Assembly (NCBI GenBank): GCA_017558065.1
Contig: JAFYWK010000028.1
Span: 1-34,986 of the forward strand
Source of the DNA: Paludibacteraceae bacterium
Lineage (GTDB): Bacteria; Bacteroidota; Bacteroidia; Bacteroidales; Paludibacteraceae
Length of the DNA stretch: 34,986 nucleotides
Reading direction: 5' to 3'
Part shown: piece by piece, positions 1-33,480 of the stretch
How positions within the stretch are numbered: the stretch's first letter is position 1
Layout of the letters: each line of letters opens with the position of its first letter
Position numbers and translations under genes: made by a program
The notes under the pieces: generated by a model
Told to the model about the DNA's origin: nothing
Database searches by the model: none
Seen by the model: the letters and a program-made list of their open reading frames with translations, nothing else

Positions 1-1695
1 ATCGCTCTCAACGCCATGATCAGCACCGAGACACATGCCGAAGTCAACGCTTCGGGCGGATGGGACCTGAATGACAAAGTATCTACAGGTATCTTGTTCC
101 ATGCACAAAACATGTCGCTCGAACTCGACCATAACCACGACGGCTTCCTCGACATGCCCAAGAATACGAATGTAAACCTGCTGAATCGCTGGTATGTGAA
201 GACGGGTGATTATACGGGACAATTCCTCGTGCGCGGACTCTACGACCGCCGTCAAGGTGGCTTGACCAAAGAGGCTACAGAGAGCTTGTCGCCATATAAA
301 ATTGATTTGAACACTTGGCGCGTAGATGGATTTATGAAAAACGGCTATGTGTTTGATGCAGAGACGGGTACATCCATTGGTATTATTGCTTCGGCATCGT
401 ATCACAACCAACAGAACACCTACGGTTCGCACCAATGGAACGCAGCACAAACCAATGCCTATATCAACGCTATCTTCCAAACATCATTCGACGATTCTGC
501 TACCGACCTATGGGATGACCACGAATATAAATTGTCGGCTGGATTGAGCGTGAACTACGATGGGTATAACGAATCGATAACAGCCTACCCCCACCCCCTC
601 CCTGAAGGGAAAGGAGATGCATTGAGTGTGGTAGATTTGAGCCGTTGGGAGGTGACGCCAGGCGTGTTTGCGGAATACACTTATACATACAAAGATAAAG
701 TGACATTGCTGATGGGCATACGGGAGGATTATTCTACGCGCTATGGTTTCTTCACTACCCCTCGTATGAACTTGCGCTACGCGCCATTCGAGTGGTGGAC
801 ATTGCGCGGAAGTATAGGATTAGGTTACCGCACCCCTAACGCGATAGCCGACAACGCTGCCTACCTCGCCAGCAACCGTGTCTATCAATTCTACACTCCA
901 CTACACAATGCTACACCACACTACACCACACTACACAACGATTCGTTAGCCCAAGAACAATCGTTGAATACGGGACTTTCTACCGTGTTTTATATTCCCC
1001 TTGGCAAGAAAGAATTGCAGCTCTCAGGCGAATACTACTATACGGTATTCGCAGATGGTGTAATAGCGGATATGGATCGTAGTTTGCATGGGGTGACCTT
1101 ATATAATATGCACGACGTGGAGAATGCCGAGTACTTCTCCCACAACTGGCAAGTGGAAGCCACGATGGAGATTCTGCGCGGCTGGACCATGACCGCAGCA
1201 TTCCGCTATACGGATGTGAAGCAGACATCGTTCAACAGCGCAGTGGGCGAATATCAGTTGCGCGACAAGCCGCTGCAAAATAAGTTCAAGGGTATCATCA
1301 CTACTAGTTATCAAACACCACTCAAGACATGGCAGTTTGACCTGACAGCCCAATTCAACGGCGAGGGACGTATGCCAGATGGATTTGTGATACCAGAAGG
1401 TAGTAATCAGTATAGGATACATAATGGATACATATACCATAAGTGGTATCCACAATTATTAGGTCAGATAACCAAATTCTTCCGCACATGGTCTATCTAC
1501 CTCGGAGCAGAAAACATGACCAACTTCACGCAGGATAGTCCGATTGTAGGTGATAGGTTAGAGGCAAAAGGCGAGAAACACGGGGGATTTGTCAATCCAC
1601 ATTCGGCGACCTACGATGCATCCATGATTTGGGCACCAATACACGGCTGGAAACTGTATCTTGGATTCCGCTGGGCACTGGAGAGAGAAGAGTAG
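1..1695 (+). CDS. TonB-dependent outer-membrane receptor, C-terminal part (5' end outside window)
   Basis: The reading frame is open from base 1 to the TAG at 1693-1695, giving 564 residues of what looks like the beta-barrel of a TonB-dependent receptor; the signal peptide, plug and first strands lie outside the window. Visible barrel traits are alternating aromatic/polar strands, long Tyr/Trp/Asn-rich loops, phrases such as GYRTPNAIADN and YLGAENMTNF typical of receptor barrels, and a C-terminal strand (KLYLGFRWALE) near the end. Such receptors import bound metals, cobalamin or glycans using TonB energy. The next gene encodes a secreted HMA metal-binding protein, which suggests a metal substrate, but that is inference. 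Two repeat tracts are read in-frame here: a GC-rich element at 584-618 and five decamers at 891-940. Start codon not assigned because the gene is truncated by the window. Confidence 0.88.
   Translation: MALNAMISTETHAEVNASGGWDLNDKVSTGILFHAQNMSLELDHNHDGFLDMPKNTNVNLLNRWYVKTGDYTGQFLVRGLYDRRQGGLTKEATESLSPYKIDLNTWRVDGFMKNGYVFDAETGTSIGIIASASYHNQQNTYGSHQWNAAQTNAYINAIFQTSFDDSATDLWDDHEYKLSAGLSVNYDGYNESITAYPHPLPEGKGDALSVVDLSRWEVTPGVFAEYTYTYKDKVTLLMGIREDYSTRYGFFTTPRMNLRYAPFEWWTLRGSIGLGYRTPNAIADNAAYLASNRVYQFYTPLHNATPHYTTLHNDSLAQEQSLNTGLSTVFYIPLGKKELQLSGEYYYTVFADGVIADMDRSLHGVTLYNMHDVENAEYFSHNWQVEATMEILRGWTMTAAFRYTDVKQTSFNSAVGEYQLRDKPLQNKFKGIITTSYQTPLKTWQFDLTAQFNGEGRMPDGFVIPEGSNQYRIHNGYIYHKWYPQLLGQITKFFRTWSIYLGAENMTNFTQDSPIVGDRLEAKGEKHGGFVNPHSATYDASMIWAPIHGWKLYLGFRWALEREE
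584..618. repeat. REP-like GC-rich element inside the receptor gene
   Basis: Pyrimidine-rich CCCCCACCCCCTCCCT followed by the partial complement AGGGAAAGGAG, able to fold as a short hairpin. It is read in-frame as YPHPLPEGKGD. The reverse complement of the element at 31783-31818 has the same plan (CCCCCTCCC, spacer, CCTCCCCC, loop, GGGGAGGAG). I infer they belong to one dispersed family. Confidence 0.6.
891..940. repeat. Five decamer repeats (CTACACNNNN) inside the receptor gene
   Basis: Five consecutive 10-base units: CTACACTCCA, CTACACAATG, CTACACCACA, CTACACCACA, CTACACAACG. Read in-frame they give a polar His/Thr-rich stretch (YTPLHNATPHYTTLHND) that is plausible as an external loop. The last unit, CTACACAACG, recurs exactly downstream of the gene at 1733-1742. 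Confidence 0.85.
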
Positions 1696-1700
1696 CTACT

Positions 1701-1722
1701 CGGTAACTACCCGGTAACTACC
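1701..1722. repeat. Two perfect 11-base repeats after the receptor gene
   Basis: CGGTAACTACC occurs twice in tandem directly after the receptor stop codon. The 11-base period and CGGT core resemble the array at 11571-11625. Confidence 0.8.
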
Positions 1723-1762
1723 CGACACAATACTACACAACGACAAACAATACTACACAATA
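1723..1762. repeat. Four decamer repeats before the HMA gene
   Basis: Units CGACACAATA, CTACACAACG, ACAAACAATA, CTACACAATA. They fill almost the whole spacer up to the ATG at 1768. Same decamer family as 891-940, 27691-27730 and, on the other strand, 10684-10730 and 33441-33480. Confidence 0.85.
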
Positions 1763-1767
1763 CGCAT

Positions 1768-2124: not shown

Positions 2125-2126
2125 GG

Positions 2127-2155: not shown

Positions 2156-2156
2156 G

Positions 2157-2183: not shown

Positions 2184-3060
2184 CGGATAGATGATACTCC
2201 GCGGAGAGGAGCAAGGGATAATTGGAGTCGATGTGACCAGATGGATAATCAAATAGCACAGGGAAAGCATATGGTTCCACCACTTGGCGAATAGACTCCA
2301 TCAGCGTACAACCCATCGAAGAATCGTCGGCACAATCGGTGAACTGACCGACCAATAATCCGCTGATTCGTTCGAACACACCACTCATACGCAGGTTGTG
2401 CAACATACGATCTACATGATAATGTCGCTCACCAATCTCCTCTATAAATAATATCGGTGGCGCTGCACATTGGTCAATAATCTTATTCAGTTCGTACGGG
2501 GTTCCTTGTAGGCCGTATAGCACACTCAGATTGCCACCTATCAATCTTCCTTTGGCTTCACCAGAGCGGTTGAGAGGGGAGTGAGAGGTGAGAGGTGAAA
2601 AGTGAAAACTGAGAGGTGAAAGGTGAGAGGTGAGAAATTGGCGTTCTACCACGAGAGCGGCATCATCATCGGGCAAGAGGGAGAGGTCCTTGCACATGTT
2701 TCCGTGCAAAGAGGGCACCCCCTGTACACTCATGAGAGCATGCAATGCCGTGATATCCGAAAAACCCACTACCAATGGCCATTGGTCTTTCGGACGCTGA
2801 GGCAAAACGATACGGTCAAGAATACGCTGCAATCCATAGCCCCCACGACTGCACAATATGATGTCGATAGAGGGGTCTGAGAAGGCAGTGTTGAGGTCAG
2901 CAAGCCGCTCCTCATCCGTAGCGGAGAAACGACCAATATTACCATATACATGCTCAGCCAGTGAGACACAAAAACCCCATTGCTCGAGGCGAATTTTGGC
3001 TCTATTTACCCACTGCGAATCAATCGCACTGGCGGGAGAAAGGATTCGAATATGCTTCAT
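2176..3060 (-). CDS. ldcA: LD-carboxypeptidase (peptidase family S66)
   Basis: A 294-residue S66 family protein, which removes the terminal D-Ala from murein tetrapeptides during peptidoglycan recycling. The N-terminal domain starts with ILSPAS, and the nucleophile is Ser71 in CSRGGYG. The acidic/His partners fit FIEEIGE and SGHIDSNY in the C-terminal domain. No signal peptide is visible, so it should be cytoplasmic, as for LdcA. I start it at the ATG at 3058-3060 because the family fold begins there and a TTTG-N19-TAATTTTG promoter sits directly upstream; an upstream extension to 3129 would run through that promoter. Residues about 144-169 (TSHLSPLSFHFSPL and following) are encoded by eight tandem heptamers and lie just before the conserved GRLIGGNLSVL, so the enzyme carries a repeat-derived linker insertion. 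Confidence 0.9.
   Translation of the reverse strand: MKHIRILSPASAIDSQWVNRAKIRLEQWGFCVSLAEHVYGNIGRFSATDEERLADLNTAFSDPSIDIILCSRGGYGLQRILDRIVLPQRPKDQWPLVVGFSDITALHALMSVQGVPSLHGNMCKDLSLLPDDDAALVVERQFLTSHLSPLSFHFSPLTSHSPLNRSGEAKGRLIGGNLSVLYGLQGTPYELNKIIDQCAAPPILFIEEIGERHYHVDRMLHNLRMSGVFERISGLLVGQFTDCADDSSMGCTLMESIRQVVEPYAFPVLFDYPSGHIDSNYPLLLSAEYHLSVP
2572..2638. repeat. Eight heptamer repeats (GAGAGGT type) inside ldcA
   Basis: From 2583: GAGAGGT, GAGAGGT, GAAAAGT, GAAAACT, GAGAGGT, GAAAGGT, GAGAGGT, GAGAAAT, preceded by degenerate copies from 2572. 56 bases in exact 7-base register, read on the minus strand as a Ser/His/Leu/Pro/Phe-rich peptide with a 7-residue period (three units per seven codons). 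Confidence 0.92.
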
Positions 3061-10569: not shown

Positions 10570-10583
10570 TTTGTGGCGTTAAA

Positions 10584-10613
10584 AAGGTTTTAAGAGTTTT
10601 AGAAGTTTTAAAG
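10584..10613. repeat. Nonamer repeats (AGTTTTAAG type) between efp and cca
   Basis: GGTTTTAAG, AGTTTTAGA, AGTTTTAAA, GG. Same unit as the tracts at 11334-11367 and 11431-11472 on the other side of efp. Confidence 0.78.
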
Positions 10614-10680: not shown

Positions 10681-10683
10681 GCA

Positions 10684-10730
10684 TGGTGTAGTATTGTTTA
10701 GAATGGTGTAGTGTGGTGTAGTATTGTTGT
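10684..10730. repeat. Decamer repeats (TGGTGTAGTA type) downstream of efp
   Basis: TGGTGTAGTA, TTGTTTAGAA, TGGTGTAGTG, TGGTGTAGTA, TTGTTGT. The complement of the CTACACCA family found at 891-940 and 27691-27730. Confidence 0.87.
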
Positions 10731-11333: not shown

Positions 11334-11367
11334 AAAAAAGTTTTAAAAGTTTTAAGAGTTCCAAAGG
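11334..11367. repeat. Nonamer repeats (AGTTTTAAA type) in the efp leader
   Basis: AAAAAGTTTTAAAAGTTTTAAGAGTTCC, immediately upstream of the efp start codon, between the promoter and the gene, so it should be part of the efp leader RNA. Confidence 0.78.
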
Positions 11368-11430: not shown

Positions 11431-11472
11431 TTTTGAGTTGAAAAAGTTTTAAGAGTTTTAAAAGTTTTAAGG
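11431..11472. repeat. Nonamer repeats upstream of the efp promoter
   Basis: TTTTGAGTTGAAAA, then AGTTTTAAG, AGTTTTAAA, AGTTTTAAG, G. It repeats the arrangement of 11325-11367 (GAGTT, A-run, nonamers), so the efp promoter is flanked by near-identical tracts. Confidence 0.78.
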
Positions 11473-11570
11473 ATTATGGGGTGTATGGGTATTTTTCTCC
11501 TTCTTTTCTCCTTCTTCTCATATGCTTGGGGTATTTATGGGATATTCATAGGGTATTCACAGGATATACA

Positions 11571-11625
11571 TATGTATCGGTTATGTGTCGGTTATGTATC
11601 GGTTATGTGTCGGTTATATATCGGA
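11571..11625. repeat. Five tandem 11-base repeats
   Basis: TATGTATCGGT, TATGTGTCGGT, TATGTATCGGT, TATGTGTCGGT, TATATATCGGA. The alternation of GTATC and GTGTC makes a 22-base higher-order unit. Confidence 0.93.
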
Positions 11626-11646: not shown

Positions 11647-11688
11647 AAATAGAATAAAATAAAGCAGAAATAGAATAAAATAAAGCAG
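11647..11688. repeat. Perfect 21-base tandem duplication
   Basis: Two identical 21-base units beginning AAATAGAATAAAATAAAG (11647-11667 and 11668-11688), ending six bases before the -33 region of the U32 gene promoter. AT-rich and positioned like an upstream activating stretch. Confidence 0.93.
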
Positions 11689-11693
11689 ATGTG

Positions 11694-13760: not shown

Positions 13761-14342
13761 ATGCCCACTGGTATAGTTTTATCCCTCACCAAATTTTCCG
13801 ACACAGGAAGTATTGTGCACCTCTACACGGCCGAACAAGGACGGGTGCAGTGTGCAGTATATGGCAATAAGTACAAGGGTATTCTGCGTCCATTATCAAT
13901 CGTGGAATTTACTGGCTCACGCCGCAATAATGCTCCTAATCAATTGACAACCCTCTCCAACTGTCAGTTATCATTTGTCAACTCCCAACTGTCAACGGAC
14001 ATCCAACGTCAATGCGTGGCTATGTTCATTGCCGAAGTGCTAAGTAGTACCTTACGCCACCCTATGAGCGATCAGCCGTTATTTGACTGGCTTTGCGAGG
14101 TGGTAAAACACTTAGATACAGACACAGATATTAGTAATATGCACCTGCTTTTTCTCATCGAATACGCTAATCATCTAGGTATTGGCATTGATGACACGGA
14201 ACATCCAGATTGGTACCAATTGCCCACCTCCCGCAAAGAACGCCAGCAGCGTCTGCACGAGCTCTGCACCTATTACACCGAGCACATTGAGGATTTTCGA
14301 CAACCCAAATCGCTCGAGGTATTGATGGAGGTGTTTGACTGA
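13761..14342 (+). CDS. recO: DNA repair protein RecO
   Basis: A 193-residue RecO, which helps RecR load RecA on SSB-coated DNA. The N-terminal OB fold is recognisable (GIVLSLTKFSDTGSIVHLYTAEQGRVQCAVYG), followed by the helical part (QCVAMFIAEVLSSTLRHP, LFDWLCEVVKHLD). It is shorter than the usual 230-250 residues and no zinc-binding Cys set is seen. Residues about 61-80 (QLTTLSNCQLSFVNSQLSTD) are encoded by a heptamer tract and sit at the junction of the OB fold and the helical domain. The start is the ATG at 13761; the preceding in-frame TAG at 13746 closes the upstream gene and forbids a longer start. Confidence 0.88.
   Translation: MPTGIVLSLTKFSDTGSIVHLYTAEQGRVQCAVYGNKYKGILRPLSIVEFTGSRRNNAPNQLTTLSNCQLSFVNSQLSTDIQRQCVAMFIAEVLSSTLRHPMSDQPLFDWLCEVVKHLDTDTDISNMHLLFLIEYANHLGIGIDDTEHPDWYQLPTSRKERQQRLHELCTYYTEHIEDFRQPKSLEVLMEVFD
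13942..14000. repeat. Heptamer repeats (AACTGTC type) inside recO
   Basis: AATTGAC, AACCCTC, a 3-base slip, AACTGTC, AGTTATC, ATTTGTC, AACTCCC, AACTGTC, AACGGAC. The same AACTGTC unit makes the 21-base duplication in the Nfn gene at 30418-30459. Confidence 0.9.
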
Positions 14343-19850: not shown

Positions 19851-20892
19851 ATTATATATCAATCGTTGCCTACAATTAGCACGATTAGGCGAATATCATG
19901 TAGCGCCCAACCCTATGGTCGGAGCGATATTGGTACACCATAGCGCCCATGGCGATGTGATTTTAGGCGAAGGATGGCATGAGCAATATGGTGCCCCGCA
20001 CGCAGAACCCAATTGTATTCGTCACGCAGAGACATCTCACCCAGAAGGTATTGATTATAAACAATGTACTCTATATGTCAGTTTGGAACCCTGTAGCCAC
20101 TATGGCAAAACGCCACCTTGTGCCGAACTCATCATTCGCAAGGGAATAGGTCGAGTAGTAGTGGGAACATTAGACCCTAATCCCAACGTAGCTGGACGAG
20201 GGGTGCAAATGATGCGAGATGCTGGCATTGACGTAGTGGTGGGCGTATTGGAGGCAGAATGTCGCGAACTAAACAAACGCTTCTTTTGCCTGCAAGAGAA
20301 ACATAGACCTTACGTCATCCTGAAATGGGCTGAAACAGCAGATGGGTATATCGATTGGCAAAGAGGCGAAAGGCAAGAGGCGAAAGGCAAAGAGGAGGGG
20401 AAACCATTGGTGATTTCCACGCCACTTACCAAACAACTCGTACATCAGCAACGTGCTGAGAATATGGCCATTATGGTAGGCACACGCACGGTGCTATTAG
20501 ACAACCCCCGCTTGCTAACCACCCATTGGTGCGGCAGAAATCCTATACGTATTACTTTGGACAGGCATGGCGTATTACCCCAAGAGAGCCGAATATTCTC
20601 CAACGAAGCACCTACCATTGTGTATCGCGACAACACCGATTGGCAATATATCTGTTCCGATTTAGCGAAACGAAACATCCACTCCGTATTGGTAGAGGGA
20701 GGCACAACGCTGCTGCAACATATTTTGGATAGTGGCATCTACGACGAAGTGCATATTGAGGTGAGCCACACGCCTTTGCCCCGCACTGCCAACGAAGAGC
20801 CCAAAGGCGTAAAAGCGCCCGTATATAAGCCAGTCACACAACCAAAGGTTGTGGATAATCAGCAAATTTACATAGAAAATTTGCATAAATAG
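19837..20892 (+). CDS. ribD: Bifunctional riboflavin deaminase/reductase RibD
   Basis: A 351-residue RibD that deaminates and then reduces the pyrimidine intermediate of riboflavin synthesis. The N-terminal deaminase (1-145) has zinc ligands and catalytic Glu in HAE (55-57), and Cys86 and Cys95 in PCSHYGKTPPC; GTLDPNPNVAGRGV is the usual end of this domain. The reductase domain (about 150-351) has ILKWAETADGYI, MVGTRTVLLDNPRLLTT and LVEGGTTLLQ. Residues 176-189 (RGERQEAKGKEEGK) are repeat-encoded, in the loop after DGYIDWQ. I start it at the ATG at 19837 after a run of A; an upstream start at 19807 would cross the prmC promoter. It is divergent from prmC with 21 bases between start codons. 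No other rib genes are here. Confidence 0.94.
   Translation: MESAKLYINRCLQLARLGEYHVAPNPMVGAILVHHSAHGDVILGEGWHEQYGAPHAEPNCIRHAETSHPEGIDYKQCTLYVSLEPCSHYGKTPPCAELIIRKGIGRVVVGTLDPNPNVAGRGVQMMRDAGIDVVVGVLEAECRELNKRFFCLQEKHRPYVILKWAETADGYIDWQRGERQEAKGKEEGKPLVISTPLTKQLVHQQRAENMAIMVGTRTVLLDNPRLLTTHWCGRNPIRITLDRHGVLPQESRIFSNEAPTIVYRDNTDWQYICSDLAKRNIHSVLVEGGTTLLQHILDSGIYDEVHIEVSHTPLPRTANEEPKGVKAPVYKPVTQPKVVDNQQIYIENLHK
20362..20396. repeat. Heptamer repeats (AGAGGCG/AAAGGCA) inside ribD
   Basis: The 14-base unit AGAGGCGAAAGGCA occurs twice perfectly (20362-20375, 20376-20389), followed by AAGAGGA. Read in-frame as a charged Arg/Glu/Lys loop. Confidence 0.92.
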
Positions 20893-21782: not shown

Positions 21783-23118
21783 AATTTTGGTTATTGGTTA
21801 TTGGCTATTGGCTATTGGGTGTTTGGCTCAAGATAATATCATTGATGAGGTGATATGGATAGTCGGAGAAGAAGCCATCTTGCGCAGCGAGGTGGAAGAG
21901 GAGCGCCTCCGTGCGCAATACGAGGGGCAGCCCATACCTGGTGATCCATATTGCGTTATACCAGAGCAATTGGCTATCCAAAAACTATTCTTGCACCAGG
22001 CCGAGTTGGACTCTATAGAGGCAAACGAGTCTTCTGTTAGCAGTCAAGTGGATATGCGTATGAACTACTACATCTCGCAGATTGGCAGCAAAGAGAAAAT
22101 GGAAGAATACTTCCGCAAAACCAGTAGCGAGATCCGCGAAGAGATGATGACATCGGTGCGCAACCAGATGATTATTCAGCAGATGCAAAGCAAACTGACC
22201 GAGGGCATCCAGCCCACTCCTGCTGAAGTGCGCCGCTATTTCAATTCGCTGAGCATTGATTCACTTCCCACCATACCCGCACAGGTGGAAGTGCAGATAT
22301 TGAGTATTCAACCCCCTGTACCTGTAGAGGAAACGGAGCGTATCAAGTCGCAGCTGCGCGAGTTCACCGAGCGCGTGACCAGCGGGAATGCCGATTTCAG
22401 TATGTTGGCCCGTCTATACTCCGAAGATACCGAATCTGCCAAACGTGGTGGCGAATTAGGGTTTGTGGGCAAAGGACAATTGGTAAGCGAGTTTGCCGAT
22501 GTGGCATTTAACCTCACCGACCCCAAACGCGTATCGCGCGTCGTAGAAACAGAGTATGGTTTTCACATCATTCAGCTCATCGAGCGCAAAGGCGAACGCA
22601 TCAATTGTCGCCATATCTTGCTCAAACCTCGCGTGTCCTATATGGATAAACAAAATGCCATCACACGCCTAGATTCCATTCGATCGCTGATTATGGCAGA
22701 CAGTTTGTCCTTTGAGTTGGCTGTAGCACGATTCTCCGAAGACAAATCGACCATGATGAGCGGTGGCACTATGACCAACCCTAATACAGGAACCAGCAAG
22801 TTTGAGTACCAAGAACTGCCTCCTGAGATTGCTCGCCAAATATACAACATGAAGGAGGGCGACATCAGCACGCCGTTCACCATGATTGACCGCACAAAGA
22901 ACAAAGAAGTGTGTGCCATTGTACGCCTAAAAACCAAACGTGACTCTCACAAGGCCAATCTCACAGATGACTTCCAAACGATTCGTGACATGCTGACCCA
23001 AAAACTCAGCGCAGAAACCATCGACAAATGGATTCGCCAAAAGCAAAAAGAGATATACGTGCATATTGATCCCTATTGGCGAGGATGCGATTTCCAATAC
23101 CCTAACTGGGTACATTGA
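21772..23118 (+). CDS. surA: SurA-type periplasmic peptidyl-prolyl isomerase/chaperone
   Basis: A 448-residue periplasmic chaperone for outer-membrane proteins. Signal peptide MKSKILVIGYWLLAIGCLAQ; N-terminal chaperone domain (NIIDEVIWIVGEEAILRSEVEEE; YLAIQKL-type helices) to about 165; two parvulin domains, about 170-270 (PAQVEVQILSIQPP, RLYSEDTESAKRGGELGFVGKG, VVETEYGFHIIQLIERKGE) and 275-385 (INCRHILLKPRVSYM, RFSEDKSTMMSGG); and a short C-terminal helix. The domain order is that of E. coli SurA. The hydrophobic core of the signal peptide is encoded by TTGGTTA/TTGGCTA heptamers. It overlaps the upstream lipoprotein gene and is followed after 19 bases by the OstA gene, an arrangement reminiscent of lptD-surA in Proteobacteria. 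Confidence 0.9.
   Translation: MKSKILVIGYWLLAIGCLAQDNIIDEVIWIVGEEAILRSEVEEERLRAQYEGQPIPGDPYCVIPEQLAIQKLFLHQAELDSIEANESSVSSQVDMRMNYYISQIGSKEKMEEYFRKTSSEIREEMMTSVRNQMIIQQMQSKLTEGIQPTPAEVRRYFNSLSIDSLPTIPAQVEVQILSIQPPVPVEETERIKSQLREFTERVTSGNADFSMLARLYSEDTESAKRGGELGFVGKGQLVSEFADVAFNLTDPKRVSRVVETEYGFHIIQLIERKGERINCRHILLKPRVSYMDKQNAITRLDSIRSLIMADSLSFELAVARFSEDKSTMMSGGTMTNPNTGTSKFEYQELPPEIARQIYNMKEGDISTPFTMIDRTKNKEVCAIVRLKTKRDSHKANLTDDFQTIRDMLTQKLSAETIDKWIRQKQKEIYVHIDPYWRGCDFQYPNWVH
21787..21821. repeat. Heptamer repeats (TTGGTTA/TTGGCTA) encoding the SurA signal peptide
   Basis: TTGGTTA, TTGGTTA, TTGGCTA, TTGGCTA, TTGGGTG, in exact 7-base register, starting 15 bases after the first base of the ATG. 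Confidence 0.93.
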
Positions 23119-23143: not shown

Positions 23144-24892
23144 ATATTCAAGAGATACATATTATCCATTTTTTGGCTATTGGCGATGGGCAATGGGCTG
23201 TGCAGCATGTCCGCTGTTGCACAGGATACCACGAAGACCTCTCTGGTTTATCTGGAACATTCGAGAACTCTCTCTTTTGATGAGAAACGTCTGCCCGATG
23301 CCCAAATCTTGCGAGGTGATGTCTGCTTCCGCCACGACTCTGTGCTGATGTATTGCGATTCTGCCTATTTCTTTGAGAAAGAAAACTCGCTGCATGCTTT
23401 TGGTCGTGTGCATATGGTACAAGGCGATAGTCTGGAAGGCTTTAGCGATGTGCTATATTACAACGGCAACACCAAATTAGCACGCATGCGTCGGCATGTC
23501 CGCCTCATCCACCAAGAAACCGTTTTAACCACCGATAGTCTCAACTACAACCGTGCAAAGAATATCGCATACTATTTCTCGGGCGGAATGATTGAAGATA
23601 GTCTCAATACTCTCACATCGCGCTGGGGACAATATACGCCTGACAATCACCAAGCAGTATTCCGAGATGATGTGAAGTTGGTCAACCCCAAGTTCGTGCT
23701 CACTGCCGACACGCTGGGATATAACACGGAGAGCTATCAGTCGGATTTGGTAGGTCCTACTCAAATCCTGTACGAAGAGGAGACAACCATCCTTTCGACC
23801 AATGGGTGGTACAACACCCAAACCGAAAAATCGCTGCTGCTCGACCGCTCGCGAATCATTCACACCGATGGTATGACCCTGACGGGAGACACCATCTATT
23901 ACGACAAATTAAACGGCTATGGTCGCACGATTGGTAATATTGAGTCCACCGACTCTGCCAACCAGATGACCCTTTACGGACAGTATAGCGAGGTATGGGA
24001 AGATGCCAACAGGGCCTATGTCACAGACAGTGCCATGCTACTGGATTGGTCGGACTCAACCATGTTTACCTATATGCACGCCGATACGCTATGGACTGAA
24101 GAGATTCCGTATCAAACCTACTCGCTGCTTCCGCAAGATAGTGTGTGGGTAGATTCCGTACTTACAGCGCTGCCGCCAGACACATTGTGGCAAGACACTG
24201 CCTATCAACAGCTACGCGCCTTCCACCATGTCCGCATTTACCGCGAGGACATGCAAGCCGTCTGCGATTCGGCACGCTATCATGGCAAGGATTCGCTACT
24301 CACCCTGTTTGGATTACCCATATGTTGGAACGAAGACAACCAGATTTCTGCCGACCAGATTGATATCTATATCAAAGACGAAACAGTGGATTACATGCAC
24401 GGCACAGACAATGCCTTGGCCATTAAGCGCGAAGGAATAGATGAGTTCAATCAGATGGCGGGCAAGGAGATGTATGCCTATGTGCGCGATGGCGATGTCT
24501 ATCAGGTGGACGTGAAGGGTAATGCCGAAACGGTTTTCTATCCACGCGAAAGCGATGGTTCATATATTGGCGTCAATCGCACACAAAGCAGTTTTGTACG
24601 TCTCTACCTCACAGATCGAAAAATCGACCATGTGGTGTTTACCACAGCCACTACAGGCGTCATGATTCCGCTCAATCAAGCACTACCTGGAGAAAAAACG
24701 CTGAGCGGATTCTTCTGGGCTATCGATGAGAGACCTCTCAAACCGAGCGATATTTTCCGACATCCAGAGCGAACCAAACGACCTGAAAAGACCATCACAT
24801 CCGCTACGGCAGAGGAAGAAGAAGAGGAGGAGGAAGAGGATTCCCCAAAAAAGAATCGAAGAAGAAGAAATACTAATCAAACAAATAGATAA
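23138..24892 (+). CDS. OstA-like (LptA/LptD N-terminal domain type) envelope protein
   Basis: A 584-residue secreted protein with repeated OstA beta-jellyroll strands: DAQILRGDVCFRHDSVLMYCDSAYFFEKENSLHAFG-type, then VHMVQGDSLEGFSDVLYYNGNTKLA, VLTTDSLNYNRAKNIAYYFSGG, VLTADTLGYNT and MTLTGDTIYYDK. This fold carries LPS across the periplasm in LptA and forms the N-terminal part of LptD, so a role in LPS transport is likely. Start: GTG at 23138; an in-frame TGA at 23132 rules out earlier starts and the next ATG (23186) would remove the signal peptide RIFKRYILSIFWLLAMGNGLC. The C-terminus carries nine Glu in a row, then a basic stretch (KKNRRRRN). It follows surA and precedes a beta-barrel gene by 3 bases. 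Confidence 0.86.
   Translation: MRIFKRYILSIFWLLAMGNGLCSMSAVAQDTTKTSLVYLEHSRTLSFDEKRLPDAQILRGDVCFRHDSVLMYCDSAYFFEKENSLHAFGRVHMVQGDSLEGFSDVLYYNGNTKLARMRRHVRLIHQETVLTTDSLNYNRAKNIAYYFSGGMIEDSLNTLTSRWGQYTPDNHQAVFRDDVKLVNPKFVLTADTLGYNTESYQSDLVGPTQILYEEETTILSTNGWYNTQTEKSLLLDRSRIIHTDGMTLTGDTIYYDKLNGYGRTIGNIESTDSANQMTLYGQYSEVWEDANRAYVTDSAMLLDWSDSTMFTYMHADTLWTEEIPYQTYSLLPQDSVWVDSVLTALPPDTLWQDTAYQQLRAFHHVRIYREDMQAVCDSARYHGKDSLLTLFGLPICWNEDNQISADQIDIYIKDETVDYMHGTDNALAIKREGIDEFNQMAGKEMYAYVRDGDVYQVDVKGNAETVFYPRESDGSYIGVNRTQSSFVRLYLTDRKIDHVVFTTATTGVMIPLNQALPGEKTLSGFFWAIDERPLKPSDIFRHPERTKRPEKTITSATAEEEEEEEEEDSPKKNRRRRNTNQTNR
23173..23200. repeat. Heptamer repeats (TTGGCTA/TGGGCAA) encoding the OstA signal peptide core
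   Basis: TTGGCTA, TTGGCGA, TGGGCAA, TGGGCTG. Same family and same position in the gene as the SurA signal-peptide tract. Confidence 0.88.
24812..24838. repeat. GAA/GAG microsatellite encoding nine Glu
   Basis: Nine consecutive GAG/GAA codons near the 3' end of the OstA gene, giving a length-variable acidic run. Confidence 0.9.
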
Positions 24893-27681: not shown

Positions 27682-27690
27682 CCCAAACCA

Positions 27691-27730
27691 CTCTACACCA
27701 TTCTAAACAACTCTACACCACTCCACACAA
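27691..27730. repeat. Four decamer repeats (CTCTACACCA type) before the radical SAM gene
   Basis: CTCTACACCA, TTCTAAACAA, CTCTACACCA, CTCCACACAA. It fills most of the spacer between dnaG and the ATG at 27739, and is nearly the complement of 33441-33480. Confidence 0.92.
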
Positions 27731-27738
27731 CCAACCCC

Positions 27739-29468: not shown

Positions 29469-31748
29469 GTACTCATGCATCGCCTGAGCAGCTTTTCTGC
29501 CGTCAGACATAGCAAGAATAACGGTAGCACCACCACGCACGATGTCGCCTCCTGCGAATAGGATAGGCAGTGATGATTGCATTTGATCGTTGACTACAAT
29601 TGTTCCCTTTTTGGATATTTCAAGGCCCTCTACCGTTGATGGAATCAATGGATTAGGGCTTACGCCTACGCTCACGATAACGAGATCTACAGGCAGCGTC
29701 ACAGTCTTTCCTTCTACGGCTACAGGACTACGGCGTCCTGACTCGTCAGGTTCGCCCAAGGTCATGACTTGCAATACGGCTTCTGCTACGCGCCCCTGTT
29801 CATTAGCGTGATACTCTATTGGGTTGTGCAGGGTCATAAACTCAACACCCTCTTCTTTGGCATGGCGCACTTCTTCCACGCGGGCGGGCATCTCCTCCTC
29901 GCTACGACGATAGACGATGATAGCACGCTCTGCGCCCAATCGTTTGGCAGTACGAACAGCATCCATAGCTGTGTTGCCACCTCCCACTACCATCACGGTC
30001 TTCGCACGAAGCAGCGGTGTATCATTATCTTGTGTGGCAGCACCCATAAGGTTCACACGAGTGAGGTACTCGTTGCAGGACATCACACCGTTGAGGTTCT
30101 CGCCAGGGATATTCATGAAGCGTGGCAATCCTGCTCCGCTACCCACAAAGATACCCTTGTATCCTTGCGCTTGCAAGTCTTCTACGGTCAGTGTCTTACC
30201 GATAATCGTATCGCATTGGAATTGCACACCCAGTCGGCGCAATCCCTCTATCTCGCGGTCCACCACGGCATTGGGCAAACGAAACTCTGGGATACCGTAG
30301 CGCAATACGCCACCCACCTCGTGTAGGGCCTCAAACACCGTCACTTGGTAACCCAACTTAGCCATATCACCCGCAAAAGCCAATCCCGCAGGACCACTAC
30401 CCACCACTGCAATCTTCTTGTCAACTGTCAACTGCGAATTGTCAACTGTCAACTGCGAATTGTCCGCCACAAAGCGCTCCAGATAACCAATAGCCACGGG
30501 ATCGTGTCCCATTTTCACATGGATACATTGCGCCTCGCATTGTTTCTCTTGTGGGCATACGCGTCCACACACGGCGGGCAGAGTGCTGCTTTGTTGAATC
30601 ACCTCAGCGGCACCTACTATATTGCCTATCTCCAATTGCTTGATAAATCCAGGGATATTGATATTCACAGGACAACCCTTCACGCAGGTAGGATTCTTGC
30701 AATCCAAGCAGCGATGCGCTTCGGTGATGGCTTGCTCCATGGTCAAACCTTGATTCACCTCTTTGTATAAGGACTGAATACGCACTTCAGGCGCCAGTTC
30801 TGGCATCTTCACACGTGGAATAGCAACTCTGTCTTTTGCTTTTCCTGTAAATGGTGCTACTATAATTGCGTCTGTACTTTTTGTTTCCTCTTGTGTGCTA
30901 TCTGATGATGGAACTACCTCTGCCTCAGCATGATGTTGATACTCCTCGTATGCTGTCTTTTCCTCTACTGTATATTGGCGCAAACGTGAGAGCATTTCGT
31001 CGAAATCTACAGCATGGGCATCAAACTCAGGACCGTCCACGCAGACGAACTTCGTTTTGCCGCCTACCGTCACGCGGCACGCGCCGCACATACCTGTGCC
31101 GTCCACCATGATGGTGTTCAGACTGGCTTCGGTAGGAATATTGTATTTCTTGGTGGTCAGTGCCACAAACTTCATCATGATAGCAGGACCGATAGTGATG
31201 CACTTATCCACCTGTTCGCGCTGAATGACTTGCTCCACGCCCATGGTCACCAATCCCTTCTGTCCCAACGAACCATCGTCGGTCATGATGATCAGTTCAT
31301 CCGACACCGCAGCCAACTGTTCGCGCAGAATGATGAGTTCTGCTGTGCGGGCTGCCAATACAGTGATAACGCGGTTGCCTGCCTCCTTGAGGGCGCGTGC
31401 GATAGGCAACATCGGTGCTGCACCTACGCCACCGCAGGCACAGACCACTGTGCCGAATGGCTTGATGGTGGTAGCTTTGCCCAATGGACCCACCAGGTTT
31501 GCCACTTCATCGCCTGCCTCGAGTGCCACCAGCTTGGTGCTACTCACGCCTATGCGCTGTACCACCAGCGTGATGGTGCCGCGTTCCGTGTCCGCATCTG
31601 CAATAGTGAGTGGCATACGTTCGCTATGTTCGTCCACGCGCACCATCACAAAGTGACCTGCTTTTCGGCTACGCGCAATCAGCGGAGCCTCTAATACAAG
31701 CTCCGCCACATTCTCAGAGAAGAATCGTTTTGATATAATCTTTGCCAT
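29454..31748 (-). CDS. Fused NfnAB-type ferredoxin:NADP oxidoreductase / glutamate synthase small-subunit-like protein
   Basis: A 764-residue fusion. Residues 1-275 are a ferredoxin-NADP reductase/PyrK-like module: FAD-NAD domains (HFVMVRVDEHSERMPLTI, ACGGVGAAPMLPIARAL) and a 2Fe-2S site (GTGMCGACRVTVGGKTKFVCVDGPEF). Residues about 330-764 are a glutamate synthase small-subunit-like flavoprotein: 4Fe-4S Cys sets (CLDCKNPTCVKGCP; CGRVCPQEKQCEAQC), FAD site VVGSGPAGLAFAG, GGVLRYGIPEFRLP and NADP site VVGGGNTAMDAVRTAKRLGA. The two modules correspond to NfnA and NfnB, which bifurcate electrons between NADPH, NADH and ferredoxin in anaerobes; databases often name such fusions after PyrK and glutamate synthase. 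No gltA large subunit is nearby, which favours Nfn. A 21-base duplication adds NSQLTVDNSQLTVDK before the FAD site. Confidence 0.92.
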   Translation of the reverse strand: MAKIISKRFFSENVAELVLEAPLIARSRKAGHFVMVRVDEHSERMPLTIADADTERGTITLVVQRIGVSSTKLVALEAGDEVANLVGPLGKATTIKPFGTVVCACGGVGAAPMLPIARALKEAGNRVITVLAARTAELIILREQLAAVSDELIIMTDDGSLGQKGLVTMGVEQVIQREQVDKCITIGPAIMMKFVALTTKKYNIPTEASLNTIMVDGTGMCGACRVTVGGKTKFVCVDGPEFDAHAVDFDEMLSRLRQYTVEEKTAYEEYQHHAEAEVVPSSDSTQEETKSTDAIIVAPFTGKAKDRVAIPRVKMPELAPEVRIQSLYKEVNQGLTMEQAITEAHRCLDCKNPTCVKGCPVNINIPGFIKQLEIGNIVGAAEVIQQSSTLPAVCGRVCPQEKQCEAQCIHVKMGHDPVAIGYLERFVADNSQLTVDNSQLTVDKKIAVVGSGPAGLAFAGDMAKLGYQVTVFEALHEVGGVLRYGIPEFRLPNAVVDREIEGLRRLGVQFQCDTIIGKTLTVEDLQAQGYKGIFVGSGAGLPRFMNIPGENLNGVMSCNEYLTRVNLMGAATQDNDTPLLRAKTVMVVGGGNTAMDAVRTAKRLGAERAIIVYRRSEEEMPARVEEVRHAKEEGVEFMTLHNPIEYHANEQGRVAEAVLQVMTLGEPDESGRRSPVAVEGKTVTLPVDLVIVSVGVSPNPLIPSTVEGLEISKKGTIVVNDQMQSSLPILFAGGDIVRGGATVILAMSDGRKAAQAMHEYLSKS
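30418..30459. repeat. Perfect 21-base tandem duplication inside the Nfn gene
   Basis: TTGTCAACTGTCAACTGCGA plus A occurs twice (30418-30438, 30439-30459), each built of three heptamers. On the minus strand it gives the heptapeptide NSQLTVD twice, immediately before KIAVVGSGPAG. Confidence 0.95.
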
Positions 31749-31759
31749 ACCCCTGCCTA

Positions 31760-31780
31760 TAACCTTTAACCTCTATCCTC
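31760..31780. repeat. Heptamer repeats (TAACCTT type)
   Basis: TAACCTT, TAACCTC, TATCCTC between deoC and the Nfn gene, next to the REP-like element. Confidence 0.65.
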
Positions 31781-31782
31781 AT

Positions 31783-31818
31783 CTCCTCCCCTTATAGGGG
31801 GAGGTTGGGAGGGGGCTC
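31783..31818. repeat. REP-like GC-rich hairpin element
   Basis: CTCCTCCCCTTATAGGGGGAG (31783-31803 region) folds on itself and is followed by GTTGGGAGGGGGCTC. It sits directly before the deoC stop codon (31820) in the spacer to the downstream Nfn gene and could act as a transcript end or stability element. Related to 584-618. Confidence 0.7.
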
Positions 31819-31819
31819 T

Positions 31820-32698
31820 TTAAAAGTACTTCACTTCCTCGCCCATGATACTCGTGAGCAGGTTATTTGCCAGACGGCTGGCGCCGAAGCGGAACGACTC
31901 ATTATTGAGCCATTGCTCGCCCAGAATCTCTTTGACCAAGGTGTAGTGTTGCACGGCCTCGTCGGTGGTGCTGACGCCGCCCGCGGGCTTGTAGCAAACT
32001 TTCTGTCCGGTCTTAGCTTGCCAATCCTTGATGGCGTGGCACATGATATAGGTGGCTTCAGGTGTCGCATTCACGGCAATCTTGCCTGTAGAAGTCTTGA
32101 TGAAATCAGCTCCCGCAGCCATAGCCAAGATACTAGCTTTGTAGATATTCTCCGCAGTCTTGAGTACGCCTGTCTCCAGAATCACCTTCAGGTGGGCATC
32201 GCGGATAGCGGCTTTGATTTCAGAGATCTCGTCATACACCTCTTGGTAGTTACCTTCCAGAAATTTGCCAATAGAGATCACGATGTCAATCTCTGTGGCG
32301 CCTGCGGCTACAGCCATAGCGGCTTCTGCCACCTTCACCTCGATGAAGGTTTGCGATGCAGGGAATCCTGCAGCCACTGCGGCGATACCGATAGGTTCGG
32401 TCAGCACCTCGCGCGCTGTTTCCACCAGAGCGGGATACACGCACATGGCTGCCACGTTAGGTACGCCAGGGAAGTGACCATCAAAGTCATTCACCTTTTG
32501 TGCCATCGTAGCCACTTTCTCGGTGGTGTCATCGCCATTGAGGGTAGTGAGATCAATCTGATTGAGGCATTGCATCCACACTTCGCGGGTGTTGTTTTCC
32601 TCTGTATGTTTGGCCAGTATGTCGGCGGTATTCTTTTGCACCAACTCATCGGTGAGTGTGCAAGGGTATTCTGCAAATAATGATTCGAATTTATCCAT
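31820..32698 (-). CDS. deoC: Deoxyribose-phosphate aldolase
   Basis: A 292-residue class I aldolase that cleaves 2-deoxyribose 5-phosphate to acetaldehyde and glyceraldehyde 3-phosphate in deoxynucleoside breakdown. The Schiff-base Lys201 is in ADFIKTSTGK; Asp138 in EIDIVISIGK and the second lysine in VCYKPAGGVST complete the active site. Length fits the longer DeoC type. It is 52 bases downstream of psd on the same strand and 71 bases upstream of the Nfn gene with the REP-like hairpin between. No clear promoter was found in the 52-base spacer, so it is probably read from the pyrE promoter. Confidence 0.96.
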   Translation of the reverse strand: MDKFESLFAEYPCTLTDELVQKNTADILAKHTEENNTREVWMQCLNQIDLTTLNGDDTTEKVATMAQKVNDFDGHFPGVPNVAAMCVYPALVETAREVLTEPIGIAAVAAGFPASQTFIEVKVAEAAMAVAAGATEIDIVISIGKFLEGNYQEVYDEISEIKAAIRDAHLKVILETGVLKTAENIYKASILAMAAGADFIKTSTGKIAVNATPEATYIMCHAIKDWQAKTGQKVCYKPAGGVSTTDEAVQHYTLVKEILGEQWLNNESFRFGASRLANNLLTSIMGEEVKYF

Positions 32699-32750
32699 GA
32701 TTAGTAGTATTAAGAATAAAGTTTATGATGTAAAGTATAAAGGCGTGGGA

Positions 32751-33434
32751 CTATTTTAGTCTGCCGATAATGGTTTCGTTTCCGATAACTGGTTCGCCTA
32801 CTTTTACAAAGATTTCTGTGTCTAGTGGCAGGTACATATCTACGCGTGAGCCAAACTTGATAAAACCAAAATGTTCGTTGCGTTGTGATTGGTGTCCTGG
32901 TTTAGCATAGGTAACGATTCGTCGTGCCATGGCGCCTGCTATCTGGCGAATAGCGATTTGCACTTTAGAGGGTGTCTCTATCACCACCAACGAGCGTTCG
33001 TTCTCGGTGCTGGATTTGGGCAGCCATGCGCCCTGATGGCGTCCGTCCTGATGTTCGGACACGAGCACGGTTCCCTCGATAGGATACCAGTTGGCATGCA
33101 CATTGAATGGCGACATGAAGATGCTCACCTGCAAGCGCTTCTCGTGAAAATACTCATGCTCCTCAGTGGGTTCCACCACTACGATTCTGCCGTCCGCAGG
33201 CGCGATGAGCAGATTATCATCGCTCACCTCCACAATACGCGTTGGATTGCGGAAGAAGTAGGTCACAAACACCAGCAGACTGGCACTCAGCAGTAGTGTT
33301 ATAGCGCCTATCCAGTTAGGCATATACATGAACATGGGCACATTGATGATAAAGATCAGCAATGTGAGTGTAGCTATCAACCCGCGACCTTCGCGGTGAA
33401 TACGAATACGTCTTTTTCTTTTTTTATGTCCCAT
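32751..33434 (-). CDS. psd: Phosphatidylserine decarboxylase (short form)
   Basis: A 227-residue membrane enzyme that makes phosphatidylethanolamine. Two hydrophobic segments (about 18-38 and 46-66) anchor it; the decarboxylase domain has PADGRIVVVE (Asp90), FMSPFNVHANWYPIEG (His122), and KFGSRVDMYLP, where self-cleavage between Gly195 and Ser196 would produce the pyruvoyl group. FGSR instead of LGST is normal for the short-form family. I start it at the ATG at 33432-33434; a longer frame would translate the decamer repeat. Together with a serine palmitoyltransferase-like enzyme elsewhere in the window it covers two lipid classes of a Bacteroidales membrane. Confidence 0.93.
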   Translation of the reverse strand: MGHKKRKRRIRIHREGRGLIATLTLLIFIINVPMFMYMPNWIGAITLLLSASLLVFVTYFFRNPTRIVEVSDDNLLIAPADGRIVVVEPTEEHEYFHEKRLQVSIFMSPFNVHANWYPIEGTVLVSEHQDGRHQGAWLPKSSTENERSLVVIETPSKVQIAIRQIAGAMARRIVTYAKPGHQSQRNEHFGFIKFGSRVDMYLPLDTEIFVKVGEPVIGNETIIGRLK

Positions 33435-33440
33435 AGAGTG

Positions 33441-33480
33441 GTGGAGAATGGTGTAGAGTTGTGTAGAATTGTTTAGAGTG
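33441..33480. repeat. Four decamer repeats between psd and the SRPBCC gene
   Basis: GTGGAGAATG, GTGTAGAGTT, GTGTAGAATT, GTTTAGAGTG. These units take up nearly the whole 47-base spacer between the SRPBCC stop codon (33482) and the psd start (33434). Confidence 0.92.

Follow-up and report, generated by a model that had tools for sequence, protein, structure and literature searches.

Short tandem arrays in genes and spacers of a Paludibacteraceae genome and their variation among related species

Tandem arrays and hairpins in the window

The window is the whole stretch of DNA that was analysed (34,986 nt; JAFYWK010000028.1, GCA_017558065.1), and its host genome (G000) is sampled over 763 kb. The host genus is a gut bacterium of the Bacteroidales, and its relatives with names are mostly placed in Paludibacteraceae. 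One genome per species is used for the comparisons. The nearest relative species (G158) shows 89% DNA identity to the window's genome. The hairpins found together with the tandem tracts (CCCCTCCC...GGGAGGGG) are taken by us to be REP-like from their appearance. The features are as follows, with the strand where assigned.

585..616: REP-like GC-rich hairpin in a TonB-dependent receptor gene, read from the sequence; the same site holds GCCTCTC-type heptamers in G054 and neither in G039.
886..936 (+): 10-mer tract (CTACACCACA type) in the TonB-dependent receptor gene (TRF); degenerate 10-mer version in G039, heptamer tract in G058, nothing in G054.
1692..1724 (+): 11-mer tract, 3 copies of GTAACTACCCG, at the TonB-receptor stop codon (TRF and shuffle test).
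1725..1763 (+): 10-mer tract directly 5' of the next gene (TRF and shuffle test).
2571..2635 (−): 7-mer tract (GTGAGAG/GTGAAAG) in a muramoyltetrapeptide carboxypeptidase-like gene (NF008424 match, below model cut-off) (TRF); G054 lacks it, and G039 has another sequence there.
10583..10612: intergenic 9-mer tract (AAAAGTTTT type) (TRF); in G158 the site holds a TTATTGG 7-mer stretch.
10683..10724: intergenic 10-mer tract (TRF); nearly identical in G158.
11336..11360: 9-mer tract (TRF); common to G158.
11445..11471: 9-mer tract (TRF); common to G158.
11527..11624 (+): composite of about four GGGTATTCATA-type 11-mers, then about five TATGTATCGGT-type 11-mers (TRF); also in G158; this architecture has 10 copies in the 763 kb sample, the window copy included.
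11647..11689 (+): exact 21-bp tandem duplication; single copy in G158.
13942..13996 (+): degenerate 7-mer stretch (CAACTGTCAG type) in a RecO-like gene (TIGR00613 match, slightly below cut-off) (shuffle test, missed by TRF); partly common to G158.
17916..17952 (+): 7-mer tract (TACACCT) in a glycosyltransferase-like gene (TRF); similar in G102, another repeat (ACTACACAAG) in G039, GATCTAC-type sequence in G158, hairpin in G025.
19279..19320 (−): weak 7-mer stretch in the PrmC gene (TIGR03534) (shuffle test, missed by TRF); common to G158.
20357..20395 (+): 7-mer tract (AAGAGGCGAAAGGC) in RibD (TIGR00326), directly after TADGYID (TRF); G025 and G039 lack the tract, and that of G096 is longer.
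21787..21818 (+): 7-mer tract (TTGGCTA) coding for the signal peptide of a SurA-like PPIase (TRF; translation ILVIGYWLLAIG); heptamers also in G158, G014 and G096, none in G025, G039 and G058.
23173..23202 (+): 7-mer stretch (TTGGCTATTGGCGATGGGCAATGGG) near the start of an LptA-like gene (TIGR03002 match, below cut-off) (shuffle test, missed by TRF).
27683..27731 (+): 10-mer tract occupying the stop-to-start gap of two genes (TRF); longer in G158, short in G014, none in G096 and G058.
30418..30464 (−): 7-mer tract (TGTCAAC, 21-bp superunit) in a DHO dehydrogenase B/glutamate synthase fusion gene (NF009414) (TRF); different, unalignable sequences in G158 and G025.
31757..31783: intergenic 7-mer stretch (CCTTTAACCTCTAT) (shuffle test, missed by TRF); partly common to G158 and G025.
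31787..31820: intergenic REP-like hairpin (CCCCTTATAGGGG type); not in G158, G025 or G039.
33434..33482 (−): 10-mer tract directly 5' of the phosphatidylserine decarboxylase start (TRF); in G158, not in G025 or G039.

The tracts are genuine and greatly exceed chance expectation. At a TRF score of at least 30, the window contains 25 merged tracts, as compared with a mean of 4.4 (maximum 10) in 100 dinucleotide shuffles and 5.8 (maximum 11) in 100 order-5 Markov simulations. At a score of at least 50, it contains 11, as compared with 0.08 (maximum 1) and 0.10 (maximum 2) respectively. Sequence of the same composition gives far fewer tracts, and the original observation is confirmed. By-eye comparison indicates that the TRF rows overlap 15 of the 21 start points listed there. 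When each start point is compared with 300 local shuffles (best of six lags), 20 of the 21 reach 0.01 or less; position 12572 fails (0.10) and position 29076 is borderline (0.010). These two are also the weakest against random window positions, for which the values range from 0.0003 to 0.049. It is correct, as had been claimed, that the unit drifts within a tract while the register is kept. Families likewise recur at distant sites: for a 22-mer taken from 11571, the genome gives 28 matches with up to 3 mismatches, as against 0 for its reversed control. The claim that the frame is never broken fits the in-gene tracts seen, but selection on its own would produce the same pattern. The tract at 33441 lies upstream of the likely phosphatidylserine decarboxylase start and so outside the gene.

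Unit lengths, families and variation among species

The 763 kb sample contains 337 tracts of about 20–138 nt and many unit families, and 116 of them are coding, according to rough gene calls. Period 7 accounts for 68 tracts (more when periods 14 and 21 are added), period 10 for 50 and period 11 for 52. The unit lengths are sharp. Self-similar spacer windows per 10 kb number 31.6 at lag 7, 13.4 at lag 9, 29.3 at lag 10 and 58.2 at lag 11, as compared with 0.6, 0.0, 1.9, 0.0 and 0.0 at the off-peak lags 5, 6, 8, 12 and 13. The decamer family has 134 matches in G000, 33 in G079, 30 in G014 and at most one in every other genome drawn. Among the genomes drawn, it is therefore amplified solely in the subclade of the window.

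Related species hold quite different repeats, or none, at one spot. Of 64 testable tracts of the host genome, 29 are conserved in G158 with ordinary substitutions (identity 0.897 inside and 0.906 in the 300-nt flanks) and 35 are not. Many tracts are thus simply inherited. In 13 of the 35 non-conserved cases, seen from the host side, the other species has no significant tandem. One coding site is filled in five of nine species. The fillers are a 10-mer, a REP-like hairpin, two 7-mer tracts, one of them with hairpins, and a GATCTAC composite; the other four species keep a short native sequence, and the reading frame is kept. A stop/start junction in nine species is a TAATG overlap in four, holds two different 7-mer families in four and has a short non-tandem insert in one. 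REP-like hairpins are found at sites that hold tandem arrays in other species. At the RibD site, 21 of 81 sequences are tandem at p ≤ 0.02. The site L229:1570 is a clean coding swap with 60-nt flank identities of 0.97 and 0.98, and L046:8040, where an 11-mer array recurs in six of nine species, is a stable site. The discrete presence and absence expected by the original prediction is thus seen in sites that are empty or filled across relatives and in unrelated families at one site.

Most events could not be polarised. In several swaps, one flank shows low identity, which suggests that the insertion may have taken place in another lineage before being imported, and some swaps sit at steps in flanking identity. 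Because of these steps, homologous recombination between species (allele exchange) probably accounts for part of the swapping.

Origin of the arrays

The reading that we favour, with a probability of roughly 0.4, is recurrent short insertion of repeat 'filler' with units of 7, 9, 10 and 11 nt, filtered by selection. Arrays of a lineage-specific unit vocabulary and REP-like hairpins would be discrete blocks, roughly 20–140 nt long, which can be inserted and replaced at tolerant sites (stop-to-start gaps in operons; loops, linkers and signal peptides in proteins; longer spacers). New arrays would most likely be made by error-prone synthesis during break or gap repair or replication restart, and this synthesis may copy, in trans, unit-length stretches of arrays elsewhere via short microhomology. 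Blocks that break a frame, start or stop would be lost by purifying selection, homologous recombination between congeners would then shuffle the alleles, and most arrays would be neutral. This reading is favoured because of the excess over shuffles, the sharp lags, the varied content per site, the tandem share at the RibD site, the clean swap at L229:1570 and the clade-limited decamers. It is also supported because neighbouring decamers are no more alike than shuffled ones, no Y1_Tnp match is found and MutS-family genes are present in G000. It is weakened by the conserved tracts, by same-family changes, by the uniformity of units within heptamer arrays, by the swaps with one flank of low identity, by the cases in which the other species has no tandem and by some stable sites; in addition, no break-repair or copying event is seen and no enzyme is implicated.

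Ordinary slippage followed by drift ranks close behind. Units of 7–11 nt would escape mismatch repair, local seeds would expand, point mutations would diversify them and tolerant sites would retain them, and the likeness of families would reflect convergence and compositional bias. Mismatch repair with MutS fixes small loops and leaves larger ones, and the MutS-family genes of the host would act in this way. Changes of length within the same family occur, and the same-family changes in 15 comparisons (7 on the host side and 8 on the G158 side, some sites counted twice) are explicable by slippage. The CCTYTMR heptamers are more alike within one array than across arrays (0.690 vs 0.613; shuffle maximum 0.634), as local expansion predicts. 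For two of the nine unit families, adjacent-unit identity is marginally raised, with fractions of 0.055 and 0.085 of shuffles as high. Identity also falls with lag (0.712, 0.634, 0.598) in the lag-detected set, but this set is selected on the first lag. However, adjacent-unit identity does not exceed that of within-array shuffles either for decamers (0.761 vs 0.762) or for CCTYTMR heptamers (0.810 vs 0.822). Slippage is also difficult to reconcile with one decamer family at many unrelated sites in only one clade among the genomes drawn, with the nearly empty lag 8 and with the replacement of unrelated families by one another at single sites. The excerpts of PMC4679880 and PMC4692102 ascribe the slippage account, as a view of long SSRs, to Mrazek and colleagues (2007), and report heptamers as the commonest of 5–11 nt repeats in most genomes, for which polymerase slippage is the hypothesis.

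It is doubtful that the genus has an undescribed insertion process which writes arrays unit by unit at empty sites, instead of expanding local seeds or copying blocks. Such a process would, with the same doubt, draw on a lineage-specific degenerate vocabulary, such as C-M-A-Y-N-C-T-A-M-A. Loops, signal peptides and operon gaps would then be built from a changing word stock, which would occasionally supply a function, as in a signal peptide made of TATTGGC repeats.

A selected function is similarly unlikely. The 10- and 9-mers would serve as unstructured leaders, poor in G, between cistrons, for Rho loading or for translation in the absence of Shine-Dalgarno sites, and the 11-mers would be tandem 11-bp protein-binding arrays in long spacers. 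Consistent with these roles, 22 of 26 codirectional spacers and 7 of 8 coding cases have the CTACA of the 10-mers on the coding strand, many 10- and 9-mer tracts finish 0–20 nt from a start codon, and 51 of 52 period-11 tracts are intergenic, many in repeated composite architectures. However, these counts rest on rough gene calls, the orientation bias could mirror avoidance of stop codons or G, the same gap in relatives holds unrelated families or nothing, and tracts are also present inside coding loops, for which these roles would be meaningless.

A dedicated mobile element or an RNA-templated writer (telomerase-like, DGR- or RAYT-driven), a mobile element and templated copying having been among the origins originally proposed, is the least probable source. 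Discrete in-frame insertions at many sites, the sharing of sites by REP-like hairpins and arrays, the resemblance of decamer units to independent draws from a degenerate 10-mer, and 11 pairs of CCTYTMR arrays sharing runs of three identical units (above the across-array shuffle maximum of 7, although close to the within-array shuffle mean of 8.4) point towards it. Against it, RAYT (Y1_Tnp, PF01797) has 0 matches in G000, an assembly that is 94% complete, so that a gene may be missed, as compared with matches in 5 of 14 control genomes. The single RVT_1 match in G000, at C83 beside HRDC and FGE-sulfatase genes, lies in a DGR-like cassette with no link to the tandem tracts. Three identical consecutive units are common to 0 pairs of decamer arrays (34 in the host and 14 in G158; a low-power test), and no fixed ends or terminal repeats are noticed by informal inspection.

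The interpretation as an insertion system is partly supported, for insertion-like presence, absence and replacement but not for a dedicated mobile element or a templating RT. If the insertion of filler is mostly true, non-triplet tandem repeats have entered conserved genes such as ribD in frame, and repeatedly, within one bacterial genus, at an event density that would allow the process to be dated and polarised. It would be a natural experiment on the origin of filler DNA and on the conversion of non-coding repeats into new loops and signal peptides, and would bear on the reasons for the recurrence of 7-, 10- and 11-nt repeats across distant bacterial phyla. In practice, predicted proteins and spacers in these genomes hold sequence that is non-homologous between species.

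Comparison with known systems

Cyanobacterial STRRs are dispersed short tandem heptamer repeats. The likeness in style to them, as originally noticed, is fair. Degenerate tandems of about 7 nt are dispersed here with a sharp peak at lag 7. The REP/RAYT system differs, because the host genome has no RAYT (Y1_Tnp) match and most tandem tracts have no hairpin. According to the excerpts of PMC4692102 and PMC4679880, heptanucleotide SSRs, LSSRs or STRRs are known in cyanobacteria, Xanthomonas, Beggiatoaceae and some Bacteroidetes, and TAACTGA repeats are reported for five Bacteroidetes, among them Paludibacter propionicigenes with two sets. The excerpts describe repeats that, as here, are dispersed, mostly intergenic, patchy among relatives and degenerate in unit (e.g. 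GGGANTN), with heptamers prominent. In contrast, 10- and 11-nt units match 7-nt units in the spacers of the host genome, lag 11 exceeds lag 7 and heptamers are not dominant. Moreover, 116 of 337 tracts are coding, families swap per site, REP-like hairpins occur at the same sites and, among the genomes drawn, the decamer vocabulary is limited to one subclade.

Rickettsia palindromic elements, in the excerpts of PMC10969869, lie in-frame in unrelated protein genes and are tolerated by the protein, as are the tracts in RibD, the TonB receptor, the SurA-like protein and others. Those elements form palindromic families, about 150 bp long and each encoding a conserved peptide of its own. Here, most blocks are short tandem arrays whose ends are not palindromic, and one site is used by several families. 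BrickBuilt of Porphyromonas gingivalis, a MITE with a minisatellite, is similar in that tandem repeats of a member of Bacteroidales are dispersed with a mobile-element-like block (excerpts of PMC4596501 and PMC10969869). It is set apart by its description there as a strictly intergenic MITE, whereas the tracts here enter genes and no MITE is noticed. The kind is already known, from heptamer SSRs/STRRs and in-frame Rickettsia palindromic elements, and the arrays described here are an extreme variant of it rather than a proven new system.

Tandem tracts in the window and across the genome

TRF reports 38 rows in the window, which merge into 25 tracts at a score of at least 30 and 11 tracts at a score of at least 50. 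At these two thresholds, TRF finds on average 4.4 and 0.08 tracts in dinucleotide shuffles of the window (n=100), 5.0 and 0.14 in order-3 Markov simulations, and 5.8 and 0.10 in order-5 Markov simulations. The original prediction, that degenerate tandem tracts with units of 7, 9, 10 or 11 bases are dispersed through genes and spacers, is upheld by this comparison with shuffled sequence. When each start point that it had listed (n=21) is compared with local shuffles, using the best of six lags, 20 of the 21 tracts come out at ≤0.01, the exception being 12572. No Rfam match at gathering scores is found within the window; it also has no tRNA gene and no tRNA hotspot.

The window is contig C37 of an assembly of 2.44 Mb in 83 contigs (G000). 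TRF at a score of at least 40 gives 4.4 tracts per 10 kb in this genome (337 in 763 kb) and 3.6 per 10 kb in the nearest relative species, G158 (165 in 462 kb). By rough gene calls, 116 of the 337 tracts are coding and 221 are intergenic, at a coding fraction of 0.854. The sample of other taxa (20 genomes, 1.7-20 kb each) is too small to rank them by tract density, and one stretch in it (L242) has zero readable bases.

The spacers are self-similar at lags of 7, 9, 10 and 11 (31.6, 13.4, 29.3 and 58.2 windows per 10 kb, respectively) and at multiples of these lags, while lags of 5, 6, 8, 12 and 13 are nearly empty (0.6, 0.0, 1.9, 0.0 and 0.0). Inside genes, lags 7 (2.23) and 10 (1.18) are prominent alongside codon-type lags, and lag 11 is at 0.00. 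Heptamers occur in genes and spacers alike, in families of the CCTYTMR, CCAATAN, CCGATAY, CAACTNT and AATTCNW types. Ten-mers are dominated by one family, which often takes up everything between one gene's stop and the next gene's start. Where 10-mers lie in codirectional spacers, 22 of 26 have CTACA on the coding strand, as do 7 of 8 coding cases; in one more case the neighbouring genes differ in direction. Of 52 eleven-mer tracts, 51 are intergenic, and this class frequently forms composite elements. One such element, with about four GGGTATTCATG units followed by four to five TATGTATCGGT units, has 10 copies in 763 kb. Many copies have a similar tail after the two blocks, and at least four further 11-mer families have recurring layouts. 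A separate 9-mer family is also located in short intergenic gaps. The positions are as follows (L and a number denote a sampled stretch of a genome, with the position after the colon).

Composite 11-mer element and ACTAGYNNT-type 9-mer family
Window 11527-11624: composite 11-mer element, one of the 10 copies
L040:19273, L043:17291, L045:5300, L052:11861, L055:66: composite 11-mer element, other copies
L056:1132, L218:4666, L220:16149, L223:1759: composite 11-mer element, other copies
L041:14220, L043:781, L043:1909, L053:19400, L224:8676: 9-mer family, short gaps between genes

The dominant decamer pattern (CMAYNCTAMA type) has 134 matches in G000, 33 in G079 and 30 in G014, the latter two being relatives' genomes. 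It has one match each in 4 other genomes of 200 at the family level and in 5 others of 247 at the order level, and the reversed control likewise yields single matches; G158, G025 and G039 lie outside both draws, and their decamer tracts are visible in the alignments. Three CCTYTMR units in a row are found in 122 of 178 genus genomes, most strongly in the subclade of the window (188 in G096, 159 in G000, 104 in G079 and 94 in G158); at the order level, they are found in 21 of 247 genomes, G000 and G104 among them. The reversed CCTYTMR control is abundant in some genomes (58 in G150 and 30 in G384), which suggests that these genomes have other unit vocabularies.

Content of the same sites in relatives

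Among the matches listed, 80 named RibD relatives come mostly from 'Paludibacteraceae bacterium' or '(uncultured) Bacteroidales bacterium'; ungulate guts are the source of many. Ranking of 178 genus genomes by mdh places G158 nearest (91%), followed by a group at 84-86%. G158 matches 4.4-8.3 kb and, beyond 10.3 kb, most of the rest of the window, with larger blocks at 84-90%. The tracts of the window were aligned with one to six relatives each.

Content of window sites in the window and its relatives
585-616: REP-like hairpin in the window; heptamers at that site in G054
891: 10-mers in the window and G039; heptamers in G058; nothing in G054
RibD: heptamer tract in the window, G158, G014 (short) and G096 (long); none in G025 and G039
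10583: 9-mers in the window, 7-mers in G158
10683, 11336, 11445, 11571: tracts clearly common to the window and G158
21787 and 23173: signal peptides coded by heptamers, in some species only
29459: 10-mer tract in G158 and G025; none in the window
33434: 10-mer tract in the window and G158; none in G025 and G039

At RibD, a significant tandem (p≤0.02) lies right after the TADGxx motif in 21 of 81 sequences, and a variable stretch without a significant tandem is found there in 52 (at least 24 nt) and 8 (shorter); the tract of the window has p 0.096, above this threshold, yet it is detected by TRF. Three of the 52 stretches (L142, L149 and L154) contain REP-like hairpins on reading.

Seven sites of the L046 region were aligned, with 6 to 10 sequences per site. 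One coding site has a different content in each of five species out of nine (a 10-mer, a REP-like hairpin, a 7-mer, a 7-mer with hairpins and a GATCTAC composite) and the short native sequence in the other four. In four of nine species, a stop/start junction keeps the overlapping TAATG, and the others have CAACTGT-type heptamers (three), GCCTATA-type heptamers (one) or a short non-tandem insert (one). Counter to constant turnover, six of nine species have an 11-mer array at L046:8040, and three of six have AATTC-type heptamers in common near 13430.

For rates, chains of G000 and G158 of at least 800 nt were used (200.7 kb of own sequence, 196,970 aligned columns, 89.1% identity), and tracts with periods below 7 or of 12, 15, 18 or 24 were excluded. 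The 64 testable tracts on the own side comprise 29 conserved, 7 with a same-family tandem, 11 with an other-family tandem by the automatic rule, 1 REP-like, 13 without a significant tandem and 3 gone. Seven of the 11 other-family cases are clear on reading, and the arrays at L047:13506, L218:4666, L223:5809 and L228:14747 are related despite the automatic call. The 57 tracts on the G158 side comprise 31 conserved, 8 with a tandem of the same family, 6 with a different one, 1 REP-like, 7 with none and 4 gone; the two counts overlap, some sites being scored twice, and four of the six different cases (L178, L182, L187 and L195) are apparently reciprocal views of own-side sites. As controls, 16 of 400 random orthologous segments are tandem, as are, on the G158 side, 14 of 80 divergent islands that lack an own tract. 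Conserved tracts evolve in the ordinary way, because their internal identity (0.897) is close to that of their 300-nt flanks (0.906). Compared with G158, the insertion suggested by the original prediction loses ground for the 29 tracts that are the same segments with ordinary substitutions; the other 35 are not conserved.

The identity of 60-nt flanks is 0.858 for non-conserved tracts, 0.909 for conserved tracts and 0.890 for random segments. Some swaps lie at identity steps (flanks 0.95 and 0.78 at L046:8745, 0.92 and 0.65 at L215:12024), which we read, from the alignments, as homologous import. A near-identical heptamer-plus-hairpin block at L046:14225 is present in G158, G095, G102 and G096 and missing from the sister of G158, the species of the window; it is probably a homologous import or exchange between species. 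At L229:1570, by contrast, a coding swap between CCAATAG and CCTTTAA types has 60-nt flanks that are 0.97 and 0.98 identical.

Growth of the arrays and their possible source

For decamers of G000 and G158 pooled, adjacent units are 0.761 identical, as compared with 0.762 in within-array shuffles, and units two apart are 0.789 identical, as compared with 0.763, a value that 0 of 400 shuffles reach. In CCTYTMR heptamers, there is likewise no adjacent excess, and there is an excess at three units. Of seven other families, two have a marginal adjacent excess and five have none. No pair among 34 own decamer arrays shares three identical consecutive units, a test of little power with 0.56 pairs expected by shuffling. 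Therefore, decamers are not simply explained by slippage of one unit or by the copying of blocks; for heptamers, either process may operate. Heptamer pairs sharing three-unit runs exceed the maximum of across-array shuffles (11 vs 7 for CCTYTMR, 5 vs 3 for CCAATAN, 6 vs 4 for CCGATAY and 2 vs 1 for AATTCNW), so that copying between heptamer arrays may occur; these numbers are also reached by within-array shuffles. CCTYTMR units are 0.690 uniform inside an array and 0.613 across arrays. Local expansion and copying would both give such uniformity and shared runs.

We favour, at a probability of roughly 0.4, a reading in which copied filler, namely tandem arrays or REP-like hairpins as replaceable blocks at tolerant sites, would be recurrently inserted during repair, a central step that we infer; selection would then filter the inserted filler, and recombination would reshuffle the alleles. 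Plain replication slippage as the source of the arrays is a close second. The heptamer arrays, being more uniform inside than across, weigh toward slippage and narrow the gap between it and filler insertion. Whole-array transposition is rejected on the zero decamer pairs with shared runs, though this test is low-powered. Loss of mismatch repair is rejected as a cause, since two MutS-family genes are still encoded in G000. A 21-nt step (two helical turns), for which a TRF-selected set and the lag tests of two unit families gave a hint, is rejected as a general growth unit by an unselected scan of the own sample (r7 0.712, r14 0.634, r21 0.598). A single heptamer grammar, GKNNANN, is likewise dropped (4.31 bits vs 3.77 in a control flawed by a repeated random seed).

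G000 has no match to Y1_Tnp, the REP-associated transposase. Its contig C83 carries, at about 16.5-19 kb (L255), a row of genes for FGE-sulfatase, HRDC and reverse transcriptase, the last being the one RVT_1 gene; this cassette looks like a diversity-generating retroelement, judged from its gene content. REP-like CCCCTCCC/GGGAGGGG hairpins, some of them in frame within genes, occur in this genome without a Y1_Tnp match.

REP-like hairpins
Window 585-616
Window 31787-31820
L223:12250
G158, site opposite L218:15224

In G158 (L081), the gene for CCA tRNA nucleotidyltransferase has a 42-nt in-frame insertion with the inverted repeat CTTGCC...GGGCAAG, which faces window 10412, where the window is without it.

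Comparison with described repeats

Heptamer simple sequence repeats are described in two papers for Xanthomonas, Nostoc, Beggiatoaceae, cyanobacteria and five Bacteroidetes; for the over-representation of heptamers these papers refer to earlier work, and polymerase slippage is mentioned (PMC4692102, PMC4679880). Paludibacter propionicigenes is reported to have heptamer repeats (PMC4679880). Bacteroidota are among the phyla of high STR density, bacteria on average not being enriched, according to another paper (PMC12699852). A review gives Rickettsia palindromic elements as in-frame insertions and the BrickBuilt MITE of Porphyromonas as intergenic (PMC10969869). Among the matches listed by our search of the open-access literature, which is no proof of absence, there was no report of such repeats in Paludibacteraceae or of same-site swapping. 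We cannot match the same-site family swaps including hairpins, the sharp 9-, 10- and 11-nt classes and the clade-bound decamer vocabulary to a described system. The phenomenon itself is real, strong, genus-scale and of a known kind.
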